Assembly: GCA_003022815.1 (NCBI GenBank)
Contig: PXSL01000113.1
Span: 1 to 9,712 of the forward strand
DNA: 9,712 nucleotides
Direction: 5' to 3'
DNA from: Halobacteriales archaeon SW_5_68_122
GTDB taxonomy: Archaea; Halobacteriota; Halobacteria; Halobacteriales; Haloarculaceae
Part shown: positions 3,017-9,712 of the stretch, one piece after another
Layout: every line of letters begins with the position of its first letter
How positions within the stretch are numbered: position 1 is the first letter of the stretch
Program-made: the position numbers and the translations under genes
The notes under the pieces: model-generated
Seen by the model: the letters and a program-made list of their open reading frames with translations, nothing else
Database searches by the model: none
What the model was told of the DNA's origin: nothing

Positions 3017-3102
3017 TCATAGCGATTACTGTAACTATTCACCGGTACGACCGCATGACTGCGTGCGGTCGATCCGGTAATGACATACGGTAATCAGTAT
3101 CA
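3017..3102. repeat. 86-bp palindromic repeat, copy A
   Basis: The element is a nested inverted repeat. The outer arms are 3017-3033 and 3086-3102 (13 of 17 pair, plus one T-G wobble). Inside lie 7-base unpaired segments on both sides (3034-3040, 3079-3085), then a 15-bp inner stem (3041-3055 with 3064-3078) with a central TA/AT double mismatch, closed by an 8-base loop (tgactgcg). Copy B at 8768-8853 has the same plan and length with 11 base differences, none in the inner stem. Here the element lies between convergent genes and supplies the TGA stop (3100-3102, read on minus) of the 51-aa gene. No tandem copies and no clear target-site duplication are seen. Candidate roles are a MITE-like mobile element, a bidirectional terminator or a structured RNA. 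Confidence 0.85.
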
Positions 3103-3255
3103 GGCCCCGATCTCGACCACGAAGTCGGACTGCAGCCACATGTCCGGCTGTTCCCGGTCGTAGATGACGACCTCGTCGTCCAGCGAGAGGTGTGCGTACC
3201 GGTCGGAGTCCAGCGGGGACTCCGGGGGGTCGGCGTTCTCCTGTGTGTTACTCAT
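3100..3255 (-). CDS. Small acidic haloarchaeal protein, 51 aa (DUF7331-like)
   Basis: The protein has 51 residues from the ATG at 3255. It has a disordered polar N-terminus (MSNTQENADPPESPLDSDRY) and then a compact segment, HLSLDDEVVIYDREQPDMWLQSDFVVEI, that probably forms a small beta unit. I recall this SLDD...VVIYDRE...W.QSD pattern from the haloarchaeal DUF7331 family; the number is unverified and the function unknown. The frame is open far upstream on the minus strand, but that part is antisense to the glycosylase and HIT genes. The ATG at 3255 has a TATA-like box at 3282-3290. The last codon abuts repeat copy A, whose first three minus-strand bases are the TGA stop. This suggests that the original 3' end may have been fixed or altered by the element. 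Confidence 0.75.
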   Translation of the reverse strand: MSNTQENADPPESPLDSDRYAHLSLDDEVVIYDREQPDMWLQSDFVVEIGA

Positions 3256-5191: not shown

Positions 5192-5899
5192 ATGTCCAAC
5201 GACACGCTCGCGTTCGTCGGCGCCGCCGGCGGCGTCGGGACGACCCGACTGACGCTGGAGACCGCGACGCTCCTGGCCCGCGACGGCCGCGACGTTGCGG
5301 TGCTGGACGCCGCCTACGCCACGCAGGGGCTGGCCGACCACACCCCGGGCCGCATCGACCCGGACATGACCGTGCTCTGTCTCGAGGACCGGCCGCTGGA
5401 GGCGGGCCTCCTCGACCGCAGACTCGAGGCGGCCGGACGACTGGCGGTCTGTCCCGCGCGGGCGCCCTTCGAGCGCCTGGCCCGCGCGAAGACGCCCGAG
5501 GCCGCCGAGGCATTCGAGGACCGCATCGCCGAGGCCGGGCGGGCCTTCGACCACGTCCTCCTCGACGTCCCGCCGGTTGCGGCCAACCAGGCGGTCGCGG
5601 CCGTCTCGGCGGCCGACGCCGTGGCCGTCGTCGCCGACGCCGCTCGCGCGAGGGACGCCCTCCCCCGGGCCCGCGACAGGCTGGTCGATATCGGCGTTAA
5701 CCCGACCGCGACCGTCGTCACCCGGACTGACGGCCATCCGGACGCCGACGCCGTGGTTCCGATCCTCAAGGCCGAGGCGCCGGCCGTCGAAACCCAAACC
5801 GAGGCACGGGCGGTCGTCGGCGACGTGCTCGCGGCCACGATAGACATCTCGGTGGAGGGCGAGGAGTCGGGCGGCCTCCGCGAGCGGTTCCCGCTCTAA
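5192..5899 (+). CDS. ParA/MinD-like P-loop protein with degenerate Walker A
   Basis: The protein has 235 residues and the layout of the SIMIBI/ParA-MinD superfamily. The N-terminal FVGAAGGVGTTRLTLETATLLA (8-29) occupies the deviant Walker A, strand 2 ends VAVLDA (35-40), and a Walker B-like FDHVLLDVPP (119-128) is followed by the NQAVAAVSAADAVAVVADA helix-strand unit. The canonical motif is KGGxGKT; here the signature lysine is A12 and the P-loop lysine is T17. The GGVGTT form recalls CpaE/TadZ-type relatives, which also vary here. ATP binding may be weak or absent, so a scaffold or regulatory role is possible. No DNA-binding extension or C-terminal amphipathic MTS helix is obvious, and no ParB-like partner is adjacent. 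The start is fixed by the TATA box. Its stop overlaps the convergent 165-aa gene by 4 bases. Confidence 0.88.
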   Translation: MSNDTLAFVGAAGGVGTTRLTLETATLLARDGRDVAVLDAAYATQGLADHTPGRIDPDMTVLCLEDRPLEAGLLDRRLEAAGRLAVCPARAPFERLARAKTPEAAEAFEDRIAEAGRAFDHVLLDVPPVAANQAVAAVSAADAVAVVADAARARDALPRARDRLVDIGVNPTATVVTRTDGHPDADAVVPILKAEAPAVETQTEARAVVGDVLAATIDISVEGEESGGLRERFPL

Positions 5900-6393
5900 A
5901 GCAGGTCGTCGACGCTGCTCCGGGCGTCGGACAGCGGGTCGGCGTCCGTCCCGACGGACAGTGCGTCGGCGACGACCGACTCGGCGCCGTCGAGCGGTTC
6001 GTGCGTGGCGACGTAGGCTCCGAGGGCGAACTCCCGGCGGCCGACGTTGGCCAGCGTTTCGGCCTCGCTCCGCGGAATCGCCCCGTCGAGCCAGTCGTTG
6101 ACGACGCGCCGTGCGGTCGGCGTCAGCGGGTCGACCGGCTCGCCCAGCAGGTACAGCGCCTTCGCGGCCGTCGTCTCCGGCAGTTCCGCGACGGCGGCGG
6201 CGCGGCCGACGCTCGCTCCCTCCGCGTAGGCCTCCACGAGGGTCGCGGCCGCCCCGGCCCCGCAGGGCAACTCCGCCTCGAACGGCGCCAGCTGCTCGGC
6301 CAGCGACGCGTCGGTCCCGTCGGCCGTTGCGACCCCGTGGTCGCGCTGCTCGGCGGTCACCTCCAGCCCCGCGGCGATGTCCGACAGCGTCAT
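5896..6393 (-). CDS. Conserved haloarchaeal protein of unknown function, 165 aa
   Basis: This is an acidic, alanine-rich soluble protein of 165 residues starting MTLSDIAAGLEVTAEQRDHGVATADGT. It is mostly predicted helical, with segments around 42-80 (AGAAATLVEAYAEGASVGRAAAVAE) and 82-125 (TTAAKALYLLGEPVDPL...RRVVNDWLDGAI). The short helix pattern ASVGRAAAVAELPETTAAKALYLLGE looks like a small helix-turn-helix, which would fit a DNA-binding role, but this is inference. I tentatively place it among the numbered haloarchaeal DUFs (about DUF7858), unverified. The ATG at 6393 has a strong TATA-like TTTAATTAATAA upstream. The gene is divergent from tfb, with two palindromes between the promoters, and converges with the ParA-like gene with a 4-base overlap of stop codons. 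Confidence 0.82.
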   Translation of the reverse strand: MTLSDIAAGLEVTAEQRDHGVATADGTDASLAEQLAPFEAELPCGAGAAATLVEAYAEGASVGRAAAVAELPETTAAKALYLLGEPVDPLTPTARRVVNDWLDGAIPRSEAETLANVGRREFALGAYVATHEPLDGAESVVADALSVGTDADPLSDARSSVDDLL

Positions 6394-6413
6394 ATTCGGA
6401 ATTGTTTGGCTCC

Positions 6414-6425
6414 TTATTAATTAAA
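6414..6425 (-). promoter_or_regulatory. TATA box of the 165-aa gene
   Basis: The minus-strand TTTAATTAATAA is centred 26-27 bases upstream of the ATG at 6393. It is one of the most A/T-rich runs in the window. Confidence 0.6.
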
Positions 6426-6469
6426 CCTTCCCAGAGATGAACGGATGTGGTAGATCATCCGACTCGGAA

Positions 6470-6502
6470 CGTACCGGTTACCGGTACGCTCGGCCGGCCG
6501 AG
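6470..6502. promoter_or_regulatory. Two abutting perfect palindromes between divergent promoters
   Basis: CGTACCGGT-T-ACCGGTACG (6470-6488) is a perfect dyad with 9-base arms. It is followed without gap by the perfect 14-base palindrome CTCGGCCGGCCGAG (6489-6502). They lie about 55-60 bases from each of the two opposed TATA boxes (6414-6425 and 6530-6538), so a bound dimeric regulator could act on both the tfb gene and the 165-aa gene. TTACCGGTACG (6478-6488) also occurs in repeat copy B (8790-8800). The operator role is inferred from symmetry and position. Confidence 0.45.
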
Positions 6503-6529
6503 AAGGCCTCGTTTCACGCTCGTTCGGTG

Positions 6530-6538
6530 TTTTTTCAA
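6530..6538 (+). promoter_or_regulatory. TATA-like box of the TFB gene
   Basis: TTTTTTCAA is centred about 33 bases upstream of the ATG at 6567, giving a leaderless or few-base leader transcript. It supports this ATG over the in-frame ATG at 6447, which lies upstream of the promoter. Confidence 0.5.
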
Positions 6539-6566
6539 GTACCGTCCGGACCAACCTTCACACGTG

Positions 6567-7430
6567 ATGAGCGCAGTGACACGACAAGCCTGCCCCGAGT
6601 GCGAGGGCCGGCTACGGCGCACCGACACCGAGACCGTCTGCAGCGAGTGCGGCCTCGTCGTCGACGAGGACGCCATCGACCGCGGCCCAGAGTGGCGCTC
6701 CTTCGCCGACGACGCGACCGACCCCGAGCGGTGCGGCGCGCCGCTGACCCGCTCGCGGCACGACCGGGGGCTGTCGACGGAAATCGGCCGCTCGACCCGG
6801 CTGAAGGGGCGCAAGCGGCGCCGGGTCGCCCGGATGCGGCGCCAGCACAAGCGTGCCCACATCGGCACGAAGCGGGAGCGCAACCAGGTGTACGGCTTCA
6901 CCGAGATCCGGCGGCTGACGGGCCAGCTCGAACTCCCCGATAGCCTCCGGGAGCGTGCCTGCGTTCTCTTCGAGTCCGCACAGAACGAGAACCTGCTGCA
7001 GGGCCGCTCCATCGAGGGGTTCGCCGCGGCGGCCGTATACGCCGTCTGCCGGACGGCCTCCGTCGCCCGGACGAGAGATGAGGTGGTGGCTGTCGCCGCC
7101 GCCACGGACGCCGAACTCGACGCCGCCTATGACGCGATGAACCGCACACTGGGGCTGCCGACCGGCCCCATCGACCCCGAGGAGTACCTCGCGCGGTTCG
7201 CCTCGAGACTGGACGCCCCGAAGGAGACCGAGCGGCTGGCGCGGGACCTCGCCGAACGGGCCACCGACAGCGGCCTCGTGGCCGGCCGCAACCCAAGCGG
7301 GGTCGCCGCGGCCTGTCTGTACACCGCCGCCCGGGAGACCGGGGTCGACCTGACGCAGGCCGAGGTGAGCAACGTCGCCGGCGTCTCCGCCGTGACGGTC
7401 CGGAACTCCTACCGGGAACTCCGAGACTGA
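6567..7430 (+). CDS. tfb: Transcription initiation factor TFB (TFIIB homologue)
   Basis: This 287-residue general transcription factor recruits RNA polymerase to TBP-TATA complexes. The N-terminal zinc ribbon uses C9/C12 and C25/C28 (CPEC, CSEC). The conserved DRGPEWRSF (38-46) and the reader/linker segment GAPLTRSRHDRGLSTEIG (57-74) follow, then the very basic stretch RLKGRKRRRVARMRRQHKR (78-96). Two cyclin folds come next, about 106-190 and 200-285; the second contains the recognition-helix region AEVSNVAGVSAVTVRNSYREL. At 287 residues it is a little shorter than the 310-330 usual for haloarchaeal TFBs, mainly in the linkers. Haloarchaea carry several tfb paralogues, so no number is assigned. 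The in-frame upstream extension to 6447 is rejected because it crosses the promoter and has non-haloarchaeal codon use. Confidence 0.97.
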   Translation: MSAVTRQACPECEGRLRRTDTETVCSECGLVVDEDAIDRGPEWRSFADDATDPERCGAPLTRSRHDRGLSTEIGRSTRLKGRKRRRVARMRRQHKRAHIGTKRERNQVYGFTEIRRLTGQLELPDSLRERACVLFESAQNENLLQGRSIEGFAAAAVYAVCRTASVARTRDEVVAVAAATDAELDAAYDAMNRTLGLPTGPIDPEEYLARFASRLDAPKETERLARDLAERATDSGLVAGRNPSGVAAACLYTAARETGVDLTQAEVSNVAGVSAVTVRNSYRELRD

Positions 7431-7448
7431 CGCTGCCAGTCGAGGTCC

Positions 7449-7466
7449 CGCGAACACCCCCTCGCG
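7449..7466. terminator. Weak hairpin between convergent tfb and 182-aa gene
   Basis: CGCGA (7449-7453) and TCGCG (7462-7466) can form a 5-bp stem with an 8-base C-rich loop in the 90-base gap between the convergent gene ends. No T-tract follows. Only its position suggests termination. Confidence 0.2.
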
Positions 7467-7520
7467 GCACCCGGTCGGGCGCCTCTAGCGCTCCCGGCAC
7501 CGTTTCGCGGGCTGTTCCAG

Positions 7521-8069
7521 CTATTCACGGCCGGCGGTGGCCACCCGCGCGAGCGTCGCGGCGGGCACCGCGACCTCGTCGGCCCGCTGGCACAGCTCCT
7601 CGGGCGCGATGTCGACCCGCGACAGAAGCCGTCGGTCGCAGGCCAGCGCCGCCGCCAGTCGTTCGACCTCGGCGAGACCGCCGAGGGCCGCGACCGCCGC
7701 CGTCGCCGACCGGAGGTCGTCGGCCTCGGCGACCCGTTCCGCCGTGGCGACCCGCCGTCGCACCCGTTCGACCCACGCCTCGACGCCCTCCGGGAGTTCC
7801 TCGTCGAGCGGTTCGGCGTCGTCGAGCGTCACCGCCACCGTCTCGGGGTCGCTCGGCGTCGCGAACCCGAGACCCGACGGGCCGGGACCGACCCGGAGCG
7901 TCACGGCTCCATCCTCCCATCGCGTGTCGGTACCGTGATCGCGGGGCGGCCACACCGGCCCGCCGGAGCGGACGTCGAGTCGCACGCGGTGGGGGCGGTC
8001 GGCGGCCACCCGGACCTCGACGAGCGCCACGCCGTCGGCCTCGACGGTCGCGGTCGAAACGGTCGGCAT
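7521..8069 (-). CDS. Conserved haloarchaeal protein of unknown function, 182 aa
   Basis: The protein has 182 residues from the ATG at 8069. The N-terminal half (about 1-85) looks like a beta-sandwich: alternating strands such as TATVEADGVALVEVRVAAD, HRVRLDVRSGG, AVTLRVGPGPSGLGFATP and ETVAVTLDDAE. The C-terminal half (about 95-180) is helical and alanine/arginine-rich, with WVERVRRRVATAERVAEADDLRSATAAVAALGG. No signal peptide or catalytic motif is visible. I recall a haloarchaeal family of this kind (about DUF7857), unverified. It is the last gene of the minus-strand string from mcm, 30 bases after the 223-aa gene, and a TATA-like sequence overlapping that gene's stop may give it its own promoter. 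Confidence 0.82.
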   Translation of the reverse strand: MPTVSTATVEADGVALVEVRVAADRPHRVRLDVRSGGPVWPPRDHGTDTRWEDGAVTLRVGPGPSGLGFATPSDPETVAVTLDDAEPLDEELPEGVEAWVERVRRRVATAERVAEADDLRSATAAVAALGGLAEVERLAAALACDRRLLSRVDIAPEELCQRADEVAVPAATLARVATAGRE

Positions 8070-8092
8070 ACCGGGATTGGCCGCCCCCTCCG

Positions 8093-8101
8093 TAATAAAC
8101 T
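8093..8101 (-). promoter_or_regulatory. TATA-like sequence before the 182-aa gene
   Basis: The minus-strand AGTTTATTA (8093-8101) is centred about 28 bases before the ATG at 8069 and overlaps the stop codon of the preceding 223-aa gene. It may give internal transcription within the gene string. Confidence 0.4.
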
Positions 8102-8771
8102 ACAGCCGGACGACCGGCGTTCCGAGCCAGCTCTCGGCGCCCGCGGCGCCCTCGAAGCGCCGACACGCCAGCACGGGCGGGACCCGGAGGGTTCCGACTC
8201 GGACGGCCGCGAGCGCGGCGGTCACCGGCGCCGCCTCCGCGACGGTCGACGCCGCCGACCCCGGAACCGCCGGCACGACGTCGTCGACGGCCGGCCGAAC
8301 CGTCTCGACGAGCTCCGCCCGCGCGGTCCGCTCGAGGTTGTCGATTCGGTCCTGCAACCCCAGTCTGCGCTCCCGCTGGTCGCGGGCGGCCCGCGCCTGC
8401 CGTCGGGCCGCCTTGAGGCGCTCTCTGGCCGCGAGGTGCTCCGTCTCCACCTCCGACAGCTCCCGGACCGCCGCCTCGTACTCAGACTCGGACTCGGCGG
8501 CCGCTCCGTCGGCCACTTGGAGCCGTCCCCGCAGCGCGGCCACCCGCTCGCGCTGTCGCTCGAGGTCGGTCTCCGTCTCCGCGACCCGTCGCCGGGCCTC
8601 GGTCGGCGACGGGACCGGCGCCTCGATTTCCGCCAGCCGGTCCCGCGCCACGCGGAGTTCCTCGTCGACGCTCGCGGTCGCGCCGGTCGACCGTGCCGTC
8701 GCCGCCAGCAGGCGCCGCCGGTCCAGCGACATCCCGGGCGCGACGACGGCGACCTGGTCGTAGAGGCTCAT
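8100..8771 (-). CDS. Conserved haloarchaeal coiled-coil protein, 223 aa
   Basis: The protein has 223 residues starting MSLYDQVAVVAPGMSLDRRRLLAATARSTGA. A long charged helical region at about 35-150 (repeated Glu/Arg/Ala heptad-like patterns, for example RRRVAETETDLERQRERVAAL and AARERLKAARRQARAARDQRERR) predicts a coiled coil, followed by a hydrophobic Ala/Val-rich C-terminal domain (about 155-223) ending GTPVVRL. There is no signal peptide, nucleotide-binding motif or clear membrane helix. I recall a haloarchaeal family of this shape (about DUF7856), unverified. The ATG at 8771 is formed at the edge of repeat copy B. No in-frame alternative fits better, because upstream lie the palindrome and the stop of the 112-aa gene. 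It is probably co-transcribed with the 182-aa gene. Confidence 0.82.
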   Translation of the reverse strand: MSLYDQVAVVAPGMSLDRRRLLAATARSTGATASVDEELRVARDRLAEIEAPVPSPTEARRRVAETETDLERQRERVAALRGRLQVADGAAAESESEYEAAVRELSEVETEHLAARERLKAARRQARAARDQRERRLGLQDRIDNLERTARAELVETVRPAVDDVVPAVPGSAASTVAEAAPVTAALAAVRVGTLRVPPVLACRRFEGAAGAESWLGTPVVRL

Positions 8772-8853
8772 AGTGATTGCTGTAACTGTTTACCGGTACG
8801 ACCGCACGATTGCGTGCGGTCGATCCGGTACTGACTTACAGTAACCACTATCA
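8768..8853. repeat. 86-bp palindromic repeat, copy B
   Basis: The architecture is the same as in copy A. Outer arms are 8768-8784 and 8837-8853 (14 of 17 pair plus a wobble), with 7-base unpaired segments at 8785-8791 and 8830-8836. The inner stem 8792-8806 with 8815-8829 is identical to copy A, and the loop is cgattgcg. Read on the minus strand, the element begins with the TGA stop of the 112-aa gene (8851-8853) and ends with the ATG start of the 223-aa gene (8769-8771). It therefore fills the entire junction between two co-directional genes. In an mRNA spanning both genes the outer arms would pair, bringing stop and start codons next to each other. This may be a terminator, a processing site, a translational coupler or a MITE-like insertion; sequence alone cannot decide. 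Confidence 0.85.
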
Positions 8854-9189
8854 CAGTTCCCGTCGTTTCAGCGCCGCCGGCGACGGATGCGACCGGCCGG
8901 CGGCGAACTTCTGGTAGGACACGTTCCGGTTCTCCCGCGCCTCGTAGTCGGCCGCGGCCTCCCTGGTCGCCTCGGGGGCGTCGCGGAACTCGTTGAACGG
9001 CTCAGTTCGCTCCAGTTGGACGTCATCGGGATGTTTCTCGCGGAGCCGCAGCGCCAGGAACGCGCCGTGTTCGGTCTCGGCGAGGAGCGCCACCCGTCCG
9101 AACCGCCGCACCACCGTCTCCTCGTGGGTCCGGCAGACGTTCCGCAGTGAGGTCCGCGCGCCCTTCGAGTACGTCACCACCAGCAGCAT
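8851..9189 (-). CDS. Conserved haloarchaeal protein of unknown function, 112 aa
   Basis: This small soluble protein of 112 residues begins MLLVVTYSKGARTSLRNVCRTHEETVVRRFGRVALLAETEHGAFLALRLREKHP. The first 60 residues look like an alpha/beta domain (strands LLVVTYS and RVALLAE, helix GARTSLRNVCRTHE). The remainder is charged, with a helix around EATREAAADYEARENRNVSYQKFAAG. It has one cysteine (C19) and no recognised active site. I tentatively place it in a numbered haloarchaeal DUF (about DUF7855), unverified. The start at 9189 is supported by a strong TATA-like box 31 bases upstream. Its stop codon is supplied by the edge of repeat copy B. It follows the 84-aa gene after 37 bases. Confidence 0.83.
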   Translation of the reverse strand: MLLVVTYSKGARTSLRNVCRTHEETVVRRFGRVALLAETEHGAFLALRLREKHPDDVQLERTEPFNEFRDAPEATREAAADYEARENRNVSYQKFAAGRSHPSPAALKRREL

Positions 9190-9214
9190 GCGATAATTTC
9201 TTGCGCTCTGGAAT

Positions 9215-9225
9215 GTAAATTTAAC
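9215..9225 (-). promoter_or_regulatory. TATA box of the 112-aa gene
   Basis: The minus-strand GTTAAATTTAC is centred about 31 bases before the ATG at 9189, inside the 37-base gap after the 84-aa gene. The 112-aa gene may therefore start a new transcript rather than rely on mcm readthrough. Confidence 0.55.
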
Positions 9226-9226
9226 G

Positions 9227-9481
9227 TCAGTCCAGGCGCTCGACGGTCGGTGCCTCGGCGCTGGTCAGTTCGCGGACGCGACGGCGGGCCGCCCGCTCGG
9301 AGTCCGCGAGCACGACCGTCCCGCTGTCGGCGCGGTAGGCCGCCAACTCGCCGTCGAACTCCGTCGCGAACGTTCGAACCGTCGCCCGCACTCGTCGCTC
9401 GCAGGCCTCGAGGTCGGCCTCACCGGCCTCGAGGTCCGCCAGGGCGTCCTCTATCTGTCGGAGTGCGGCGATGCGGTCCAT
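9227..9481 (-). CDS. Small haloarchaeal helical protein, 84 aa, coupled to mcm
   Basis: The protein has 84 residues starting MDRIAALRQIEDALADLEAGEADLEACERRVRATVRTFATEF. The first 40 residues predict an amphipathic helix or short coiled coil. A small beta-containing part follows (DGELAAYRADSGTVVLADSERAARRRVREL), ending in an acidic tail. It has no known motif; I recall a haloarchaeal family in this position (about DUF7854), unverified. Its ATG overlaps the mcm stop in the arrangement TGATG (9479-9483), so translation is probably coupled to mcm. Coupling and size suggest an accessory role with the helicase or simple co-expression, but this is inference from context only. Confidence 0.82.
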   Translation of the reverse strand: MDRIAALRQIEDALADLEAGEADLEACERRVRATVRTFATEFDGELAAYRADSGTVVLADSERAARRRVRELTSAEAPTVERLD

Positions 9482-9712
9482 CAGACGGTCCGGAGGTGGT
9501 CGGTCTGCGGCTCGTACACGTCGCCCTTCTGCCGCAGTTTCTCGATCTCGTGTTCGGCCTTCGAACGTTCCATACCCACCTCCTCGGCGCGGTCCAGCAC
9601 CTCCTCGCGCGGGGCGCCCTCGTCGTACTCCTCCTCGACGTCGCTGATCAGCGTCTTGATGTTCTTGATGCGGTCGCGCTGGCTCTTGGACTGGCCCGTC
9701 TCGACGACGTCG
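9481..9712 (-). CDS. mcm: MCM replicative DNA helicase, C-terminal 76 residues (cut by window edge)
   Basis: The minus frame entering at the right edge codes for 76 residues ending DHLRTV and a TGA at 9481-9483. The segment RDRIKNIKTLISDVEEEYDEG, then the EEVLDRAEEVGMERSKAEHEIEKLRQKGDVYEP part, is the C-terminal winged-helix domain of archaeal MCM as found in haloarchaea. The ATPase core lies outside the window, so nothing can be said about inteins, which are common in haloarchaeal mcm genes. MCM forms the hexameric replicative helicase. Its stop overlaps the start of the 84-aa gene by one base, marking the head of a minus-strand gene string that may include the following small genes. Confidence 0.9.
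   Translation of the reverse strand, partial: DVVETGQSKSQRDRIKNIKTLISDVEEEYDEGAPREEVLDRAEEVGMERSKAEHEIEKLRQKGDVYEPQTDHLRTV

Follow-up and report, generated by a model that had tools for sequence, protein, structure and literature searches.

An 86-bp palindrome family of the Halobacteriales flanked by TSA duplications, with terminal repeats related to those of a divergent IS630 subgroup

The window analysed here is a 9,712-nucleotide stretch of DNA from Halobacteriales archaeon SW_5_68_122 (contig PXSL01000113.1). It contains two 86-bp nested palindromes, copy 1 at 3017-3102 and copy 2 at 8768-8853 (both given on the plus strand), which differ at 11 positions and, as D1 (87% over 90 nt), make the longest of the listed direct-repeat pairs. 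Read on the minus strand, copy 1 begins at the TGA stop codon of a 51-aa DUF7331 gene (3100-3255, minus strand; PF24018, 28.7 bits against a cut-off of 27) and copy 2 at the TGA stop codon of a full-length DUF7855 gene (8851-9189, minus strand; PF25253, profile positions 1-112 of 112). At the far end of copy 2 on this strand, the last A of the element and the TG of the TGA that follows make up the ATG of a DUF7856 gene (8100-8771, minus strand; PF25254, profile positions 43-280 of 280). The region from 5896 to 9712 has a TFB gene surrounded by DUF7854, DUF7855, DUF7856, DUF7857 and DUF7858, haloarchaeal genes without a known function; two relatives repeat the order DUF7854-DUF7857, which adjoins TFB in one of them (G072).

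Each palindrome is bounded by TCA (TGA on the minus strand), at 3017-3019 and 3100-3102 for copy 1 and at 8768-8770 and 8851-8853 for copy 2; these are assigned as target duplications from the sequence and the family rule described below. The right-hand repeats are the stop codons of DUF7331 and DUF7855, and 8768-8770 contributes the TG of the DUF7856 start. Inside them lie the outer arms, or terminal inverted repeats (3020-3034 with 3085-3099 in copy 1, 8771-8785 with 8836-8850 in copy 2), which are defined by alignment and covariation and resemble the ends of certain IS630 elements. The arms enclose a conserved inner hairpin (3042-3077 and 8793-8828), supported by fold and covariation, with an internal TA/AT mismatch and an apical loop. 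On each strand, the fold of both copies beats 200 of 200 dinucleotide shuffles (z -4.9 to -8.2), and a covariance model of the family scores copy 1 at 82.6 bits and copy 2 at 97.6 bits.

The preliminary description of this DNA, made from the letters alone, had recognized two 86-bp copies with a two-tier stem and 30 identical inner-stem bases, and both observations are borne out: element positions 25-39 and 48-62 are the same in the two copies, and all 11 differences fall outside them, as it had said. The internal TA/AT mismatch that it pointed out is also real, each of the two positions being non-pairing in 18 of 24 aligned copies (as exact letters, T/T in 15 and A/A in 8). Its statement that pairing or wobble survives most outer-arm changes does not hold, since only 2 of 6 are paired in both copies and 4 break in one. 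It had also considered a single local duplication with no other copies. The presence of two copies within 9.7 kb would suit a duplication inside the window, but the 13% divergence, the unrelated flanks and the occurrence of the family elsewhere refute this origin, to which we give practically no weight.

BLAST located relatives between annotated genes on plasmids of Halapricum desulfuricans and Haloarcula sp. JP-L23, and another in an unannotated Haloarcula rara plasmid. A pattern scan for the inner hairpin, using one genome per species, matched at least 120 stretches; among the matches listed, 106 were Halobacteria by record title, many from two genomes, and 14 were chance matches in bacteria. 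The covariance-model search that the preliminary description had proposed, with a model built from 24 copies each less than 95% alike, reveals an order-wide dispersed family: matches occur in at least 168 of 392 Halobacteriales genomes (E<=1e-5; 11 candidates scored per genome). With 150 candidates scored, three genomes gave at least 149, 150 and 141 matches, and G212 and G064 gave 91 and 73, where a single palindrome may count on both strands. Distinct copies are counted in a 400-kb set from Halomicrobium katesii (G002), the arm-structure scan, the sister-genome comparison and the 186-copy set. The 400-kb set had 73 model matches at 39 distinct places, about 100 per Mb, and part of these matches are the TA-class 86-bp hairpins discussed below. 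Two pattern scans of viral contigs found no element, and viral carriage was set aside, a lone weak phage match (E 0.3) being taken as chance. Palindromes in Haloferax, Halogeometricum, Halobium and a MAG (L019 2259, L039 3905, L063, L075 6897) have the inner hairpin in common with the window family, carry TATAGTAG-like ends and lack the TSA rule.

In the 24-copy alignment, columns 3-18 pair with columns 69-84, and 12 of these 16 pairs have changed on both sides. Double-change cells number 84 compared with 29.9 after shuffling, a signal that is strong only once distant copies enter the alignment; the inner stem is nearly invariant. The base in column 2 equals that in column 85 in 22 of 24 copies because copies end in TGA..TGA or TCA..TCA. 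The same rule holds in larger sets. Among 93 copies with intact ends from a pattern scan, 48 are flanked by TCA/TCA and 41 by TGA/TGA, so that 89 of 93 are TSA/TSA; the other 38 of 131 pattern matches, without intact TNATA..TATNA ends, were excluded and comprise decayed copies, Haloferacaceae cousins and chance bacterial matches. An arm-structure scan, which called for ?ATA..TAT? ends and complementary arms and skipped sources below 3 kb, found the same TSA on both sides in 138 of 164 copies (70 + 68). Given the same TSA at both ends, TSA forms a 3-bp direct repeat around an 80-bp palindromic body; the broader consensus of the target is GWC-TSA-GWC.

Insertion alleles were compared between stretches of H. 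katesii (G002), Halomicrobium G108 and G064, using 70 TSA/TSA copies (46 in 800 kb of G002 and 24 in 700 kb of G108). The site was filled in the other genome for 23 copies, had exactly three bases between the flanks for 13 and an odd gap for 1, and lacked a usable counterpart for 33. Twelve of the 13 empty sites hold one copy of the same TSA, and the remaining one reads GGA. For example, G002 has GACCGCGAGGAG-TGA-[copy]-TGA-CGGCACCCGAGC where G108 has GACCGCGAGGAG-TGA-CGGCACCCGAGC. Because 12 of 13 empty sites carry exactly one TSA, insertion duplicates it. Twelve of the 13 copies lie in G002 and one in G108. In G002, two head-to-tail elements (468046 and 468129; C1 468047-468214, L152 8047-8214) have a common TCA where the sister holds one element, and this tandem pair supplies one of the 12 TSA empty sites. 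The recent spread of a structured element, one of the early readings, is thus upheld: the family spans the order, a sister species has exact empty sites, and the copies carry 3-bp direct repeats.

Many copies lie exactly at stop codons. The duplicated TGA is a stop codon in 58 of 128 copies (the 138 TSA/TSA copies minus 10 near contig ends), compared with 8.2% of control sites, defined as TGA/TCA sites that are stops or lie outside genes. When the control is weighted by the flanking motif of non-stop copies, 10.7% are expected and 45% observed, so motif weighting explains little of the excess. In a larger, overlapping set, a TGA stop is hit exactly by 78 of 186 copies (~42%), the share among control sites being 7.5%. 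If the count is confined to the first 100 bp past a gene end, such hits amount to 78 of 104 copies and 1238 of 2416 control sites, and much of the excess is therefore a bias to gene 3' ends, given this odds ratio of 2.9. Start codons are hit by 4 of 128 copies. These counts use a simple gene caller that calls ~77-78% of the sequence coding and misses genes; a control built on raw open frames carried no information in DNA this rich in GC. Deposited annotation was used for 150 kb of the Halomicrobium mukohataei plasmid pHmuk01, where, in small numbers, 2 of 3 intact TSA/TSA copies fall on annotated TGA stops against 7.5% of sites, or 3 of 4 once a decayed TGA/TGT copy is counted; plasmid copies in L001 and L002 are off annotated stops. 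Of the 12 presumably young insertions for which an empty allele was scored, 5 are at a stop (P=0.006 against 10.7%, P=0.16 against a 25% expectation), similar to 4 of 10 at shared H. katesii sites. We infer that the excess at stop codons arises from the choice of target and not from selection after insertion.

The placement of copies at gene ends, the stable fold and the outer-arm covariation might all be produced by a structured 3'-UTR RNA (a terminator, stability hairpin or processing site) under selection. However, arm covariation does not prove an RNA, because an enzyme binding the same sequence at both ends predicts it; paired terminal repeats would yield the same pattern. Judged by the inner asymmetry with respect to the TGA, orientation relative to genes is unbiased (at stops, 15 sense against 21 antisense; at other places, 20 against 29; ambiguous, 8), insertions are absent from a close sister genome, and the share at stops is alike in young and shared sites. 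A scan of the window with Rfam returned no match reaching a gathering score. An RNA of this kind, suggested at the outset as a small structured RNA, is therefore very unlikely.

At copy 2, two relatives have the junction without the element. In G072, one of 30 relatives read, DUF7855 and DUF7856 are joined as CTG-TGA-GTC with a GTG start, and in an additional relative, G056, the junction is CTG-TGA-GCC. Because both element-free junctions read CTG-TGA-GYC, copy 2 occupies the place of the GTGA gene overlap of these two relatives. In 25 of the 30 relatives the DUF7856 match starts 81-339 bases further downstream, and in 4 of the 30 it is absent. A search of four stretches from relatives did not find the genes flanking copy 1.

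The IS630 family usually duplicates TA. This agrees with the TA-class hairpins and with the ends of ordinary haloarchaeal IS630 elements, including the records ISNpe3 and ISNma7, which have TATAGTA..TACTATA ends and TA..TA in 31 of 34 loci. A subgroup of this family duplicates TSA instead, for which reason we call it divergent; its proteins are 57-84% identical to the L322 protein, whereas ordinary IS630 proteins are ~30-33% identical. The full-length elements of the subgroup measure 1.0-1.2 kb, have ends related to those of the hairpins and encode DDE_3 transposases (PF13358, 103 and 105 bits against a cut-off of 28.6); with NF033545 transpos_IS630 they score 78.6 and 77.6 bits, below the cut-off of 100 (split ORFs). 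Of 14 loci examined, seven were resolved, with identical TSA flanks in five (TGA/TGA in L321 and L359; TCA/TCA in L322, L361 and L362) and TGA/TCA in two (L324, L356). The other seven gave no TSA-type ends, and one of them has TA-type ends. Subgroup ends open with TACGGTCGTGCG, TAGTGTTTA or TAGTGATTA, often with TTTACC ~24 bases in. The four ends of the window copies match them at 15-16 of 24 bases (shuffle P 0.0005-0.0065, uncorrected), other 86-bp copies at 15-18 of 24.

Two related hairpin classes accompany the window family. A sister class of 113-115 bp (L006 1418-1530, L055 3249-3361, L084 7299-7413 and others) has terminal repeats TACGGTCGTGCGTAA or TACTGTCGGACACAA, unlike those of the 86-bp class, and follows the same TSA rule, with TSA/TSA flanks in 22 of 25. 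The ends of its first set (TACGGTCGTGCGTAA) recur in L321 and L322 as the ends of IS630-subgroup elements, and 18-19 of 24 bases agree between ends of the 113-bp class and subgroup ends. CTATAG..CTATAG ends mark a second 86-bp class, found at L152 19171-19256, L153 6360-6445 and L150 12628-12713. Of its 15 copies in the compared stretches, 4 have empty counterparts, 2 are filled and 9 have no counterpart; the empty sites read CTAG, TTAG, CTAG and ATAG, and since all four hold one TA, this class duplicates TA. It fits with ordinary haloarchaeal IS630. In pHmuk01, a TA-class element (80964-81049; L274 30964-31049) opens with a TAG on which an annotated gene (81044-81202, minus strand) terminates; the stop codon of this gene thus seems to come from the element.

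A search for a partner within carriers found no DDE_3 gene in 6 of 10 carriers, including G212 and G064, and hence many copies may have outlived their partner, unless sequence is lacking. Across 392 genomes, 163 carry a DDE_3 gene of some kind. No autonomous element was recovered by its ends alone in 1.5-2.1 Mb scanned, and no partner was found among PF01609, PF13586, PF13359 and PF01797 (30 PF01609 loci checked for ends). Solo arms, considered as partner traces, turned out to come from broken copies or from a longer relative that is itself non-coding. In G108, a 2.2-kb candidate (L225 13905-16086) encodes 358-aa and 123-aa proteins and no obvious transposase, and has a matching position in H. 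katesii (L030 3399-5748). We interpret it as ordinary genes with half a copy of a related repeat on either side. The 123-aa protein is, we presume, reminiscent of PemK/MazF.

Carriers without DDE_3 genes, together with size classes fixed at 83-86 and 113-115 bp despite diverse arms, would suit another recombinase (tyrosine, serine or HUH) that reads the folded hairpin, with TSA as its crossover core and an incidental likeness to IS630 ends. Against this, the TSA rule and related ends also occur in IS630-subgroup elements, a parallel pairing links the TA-type hairpins to ordinary IS630 of the TA type, and Y1 (HUH) genes are absent in G064, G003 and G212. We regard such a recombinase as very unlikely. 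The last observation bears equally on REP-like palindromes mobilised by a RAYT/Y1 transposase, a system that is also palindromic, intergenic and of high copy number. REPs measure 20-40 bp in the accessible part of PMC3733652, compared with 86 bp here, and IS605-type elements lack a target duplication according to the part of PMC3119063 consulted, which makes a REP/RAYT origin exceedingly improbable.

The transposases of the divergent IS630 subgroup are the likely mover, judging from the TSA flanks and related ends of their elements, and such an enzyme presumably moved the window copies. The window hairpins are very probably a non-autonomous MITE of this subgroup, mobilised in trans and inserting into TSA with its duplication, and we conclude that they define a new MITE family of the IS630 subgroup with a changed target. 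The preliminary description had listed a haloarchaeal MITE among its options, and dispersal, TSA repeats, empty sites and ends related to the IS630 subgroup support that choice. We propose that an 80-bp palindromic body with related ends would be mobilised in trans by a DDE transposase of the subgroup, which would insert it at TSA (TGA on either strand) within GWC-TSA-GWC and duplicate those 3 bp. Insertion at a TGA stop codon should then be harmless because the stop is rebuilt ahead of the element, sparing the gene. Where a gene starts at an RTGA overlap, the element's last base (in ..TA, followed by TGA) would give the A of a new ATG.

More speculatively, an IS630 subgroup in Halobacteria may have switched its target from TA to TSA, with the TGA stop becoming the main landing place in packed genomes; we offer this as a tentative possibility. 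If true, ends that place ..TA before TGA would rebuild the stop and could supply a new ATG, operon insertions would be harmless, and MITEs of 83-86 and 113-115 bp would thus have reached hundreds of copies order-wide. The element is an abundant mobile element across a whole archaeal order. One transposase family apparently follows two target rules (TA and TSA) in the same order, each with full elements and hairpin MITEs, and the origin of target choice is therefore testable. Rebuilding of stops and starts suggests a route by which compact genomes can fill up with a mobile element while their genes survive, and the element splits overlapping gene pairs that may depend on translational coupling.

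Several known systems resemble the window family. We found no description of the hairpin family in the open-access literature searched; the accessible part of PMC5896051 held nothing informative on it. Ordinary haloarchaeal IS630 elements (ISNpe3, ISNma7) and their MITEs likewise have terminal repeats opening with TAG or TAC, a short target duplication, 86-bp hairpin derivatives and a DDE_3 transposase in related full elements, but they duplicate TA where the window family and the divergent subgroup duplicate TSA. The PATEs of Haloquadratum are also non-coding, palindromic mobile elements of haloarchaea; as described in the part of PMC3119063 consulted, they have neither terminal inverted repeats nor a target duplication, whereas the window family has both. 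As presented in the part of the review PMC10969869 available to us, MITEs of bacteria and archaea are short and non-coding, with terminal inverted repeats, a target duplication and many copies, and archaeal MITEs are named in a few genera, the window family not being among them. The window family has a non-coding 80-bp body with 15-bp arms, a TSA duplication and ends related to those of autonomous transposons, the latter being in other haloarchaeal genomes than the window's; it differs from MITEs generally in being almost wholly palindromic, in its strict TSA target and in favouring gene ends and stop codons as sites. The closest parallels in size are the SMR of Haloquadratum walsbyi, of which, in the same portion of PMC3119063, SMR-A are ~110 bp long and insert into PATE/IS605 palindromes and SMR-B go down to 80 bp. 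Like the window family, with its ~80- and 110-bp classes, they are non-coding, have prominent terminal inverted repeats and show strain-specific insertions. As published there, SMR differ in having no target duplication and no related transposons, both of which the window family has. Set apart by description alone, SMR (HqIRS40-43, HqIRS55) could be elements of the same kind as the window family.
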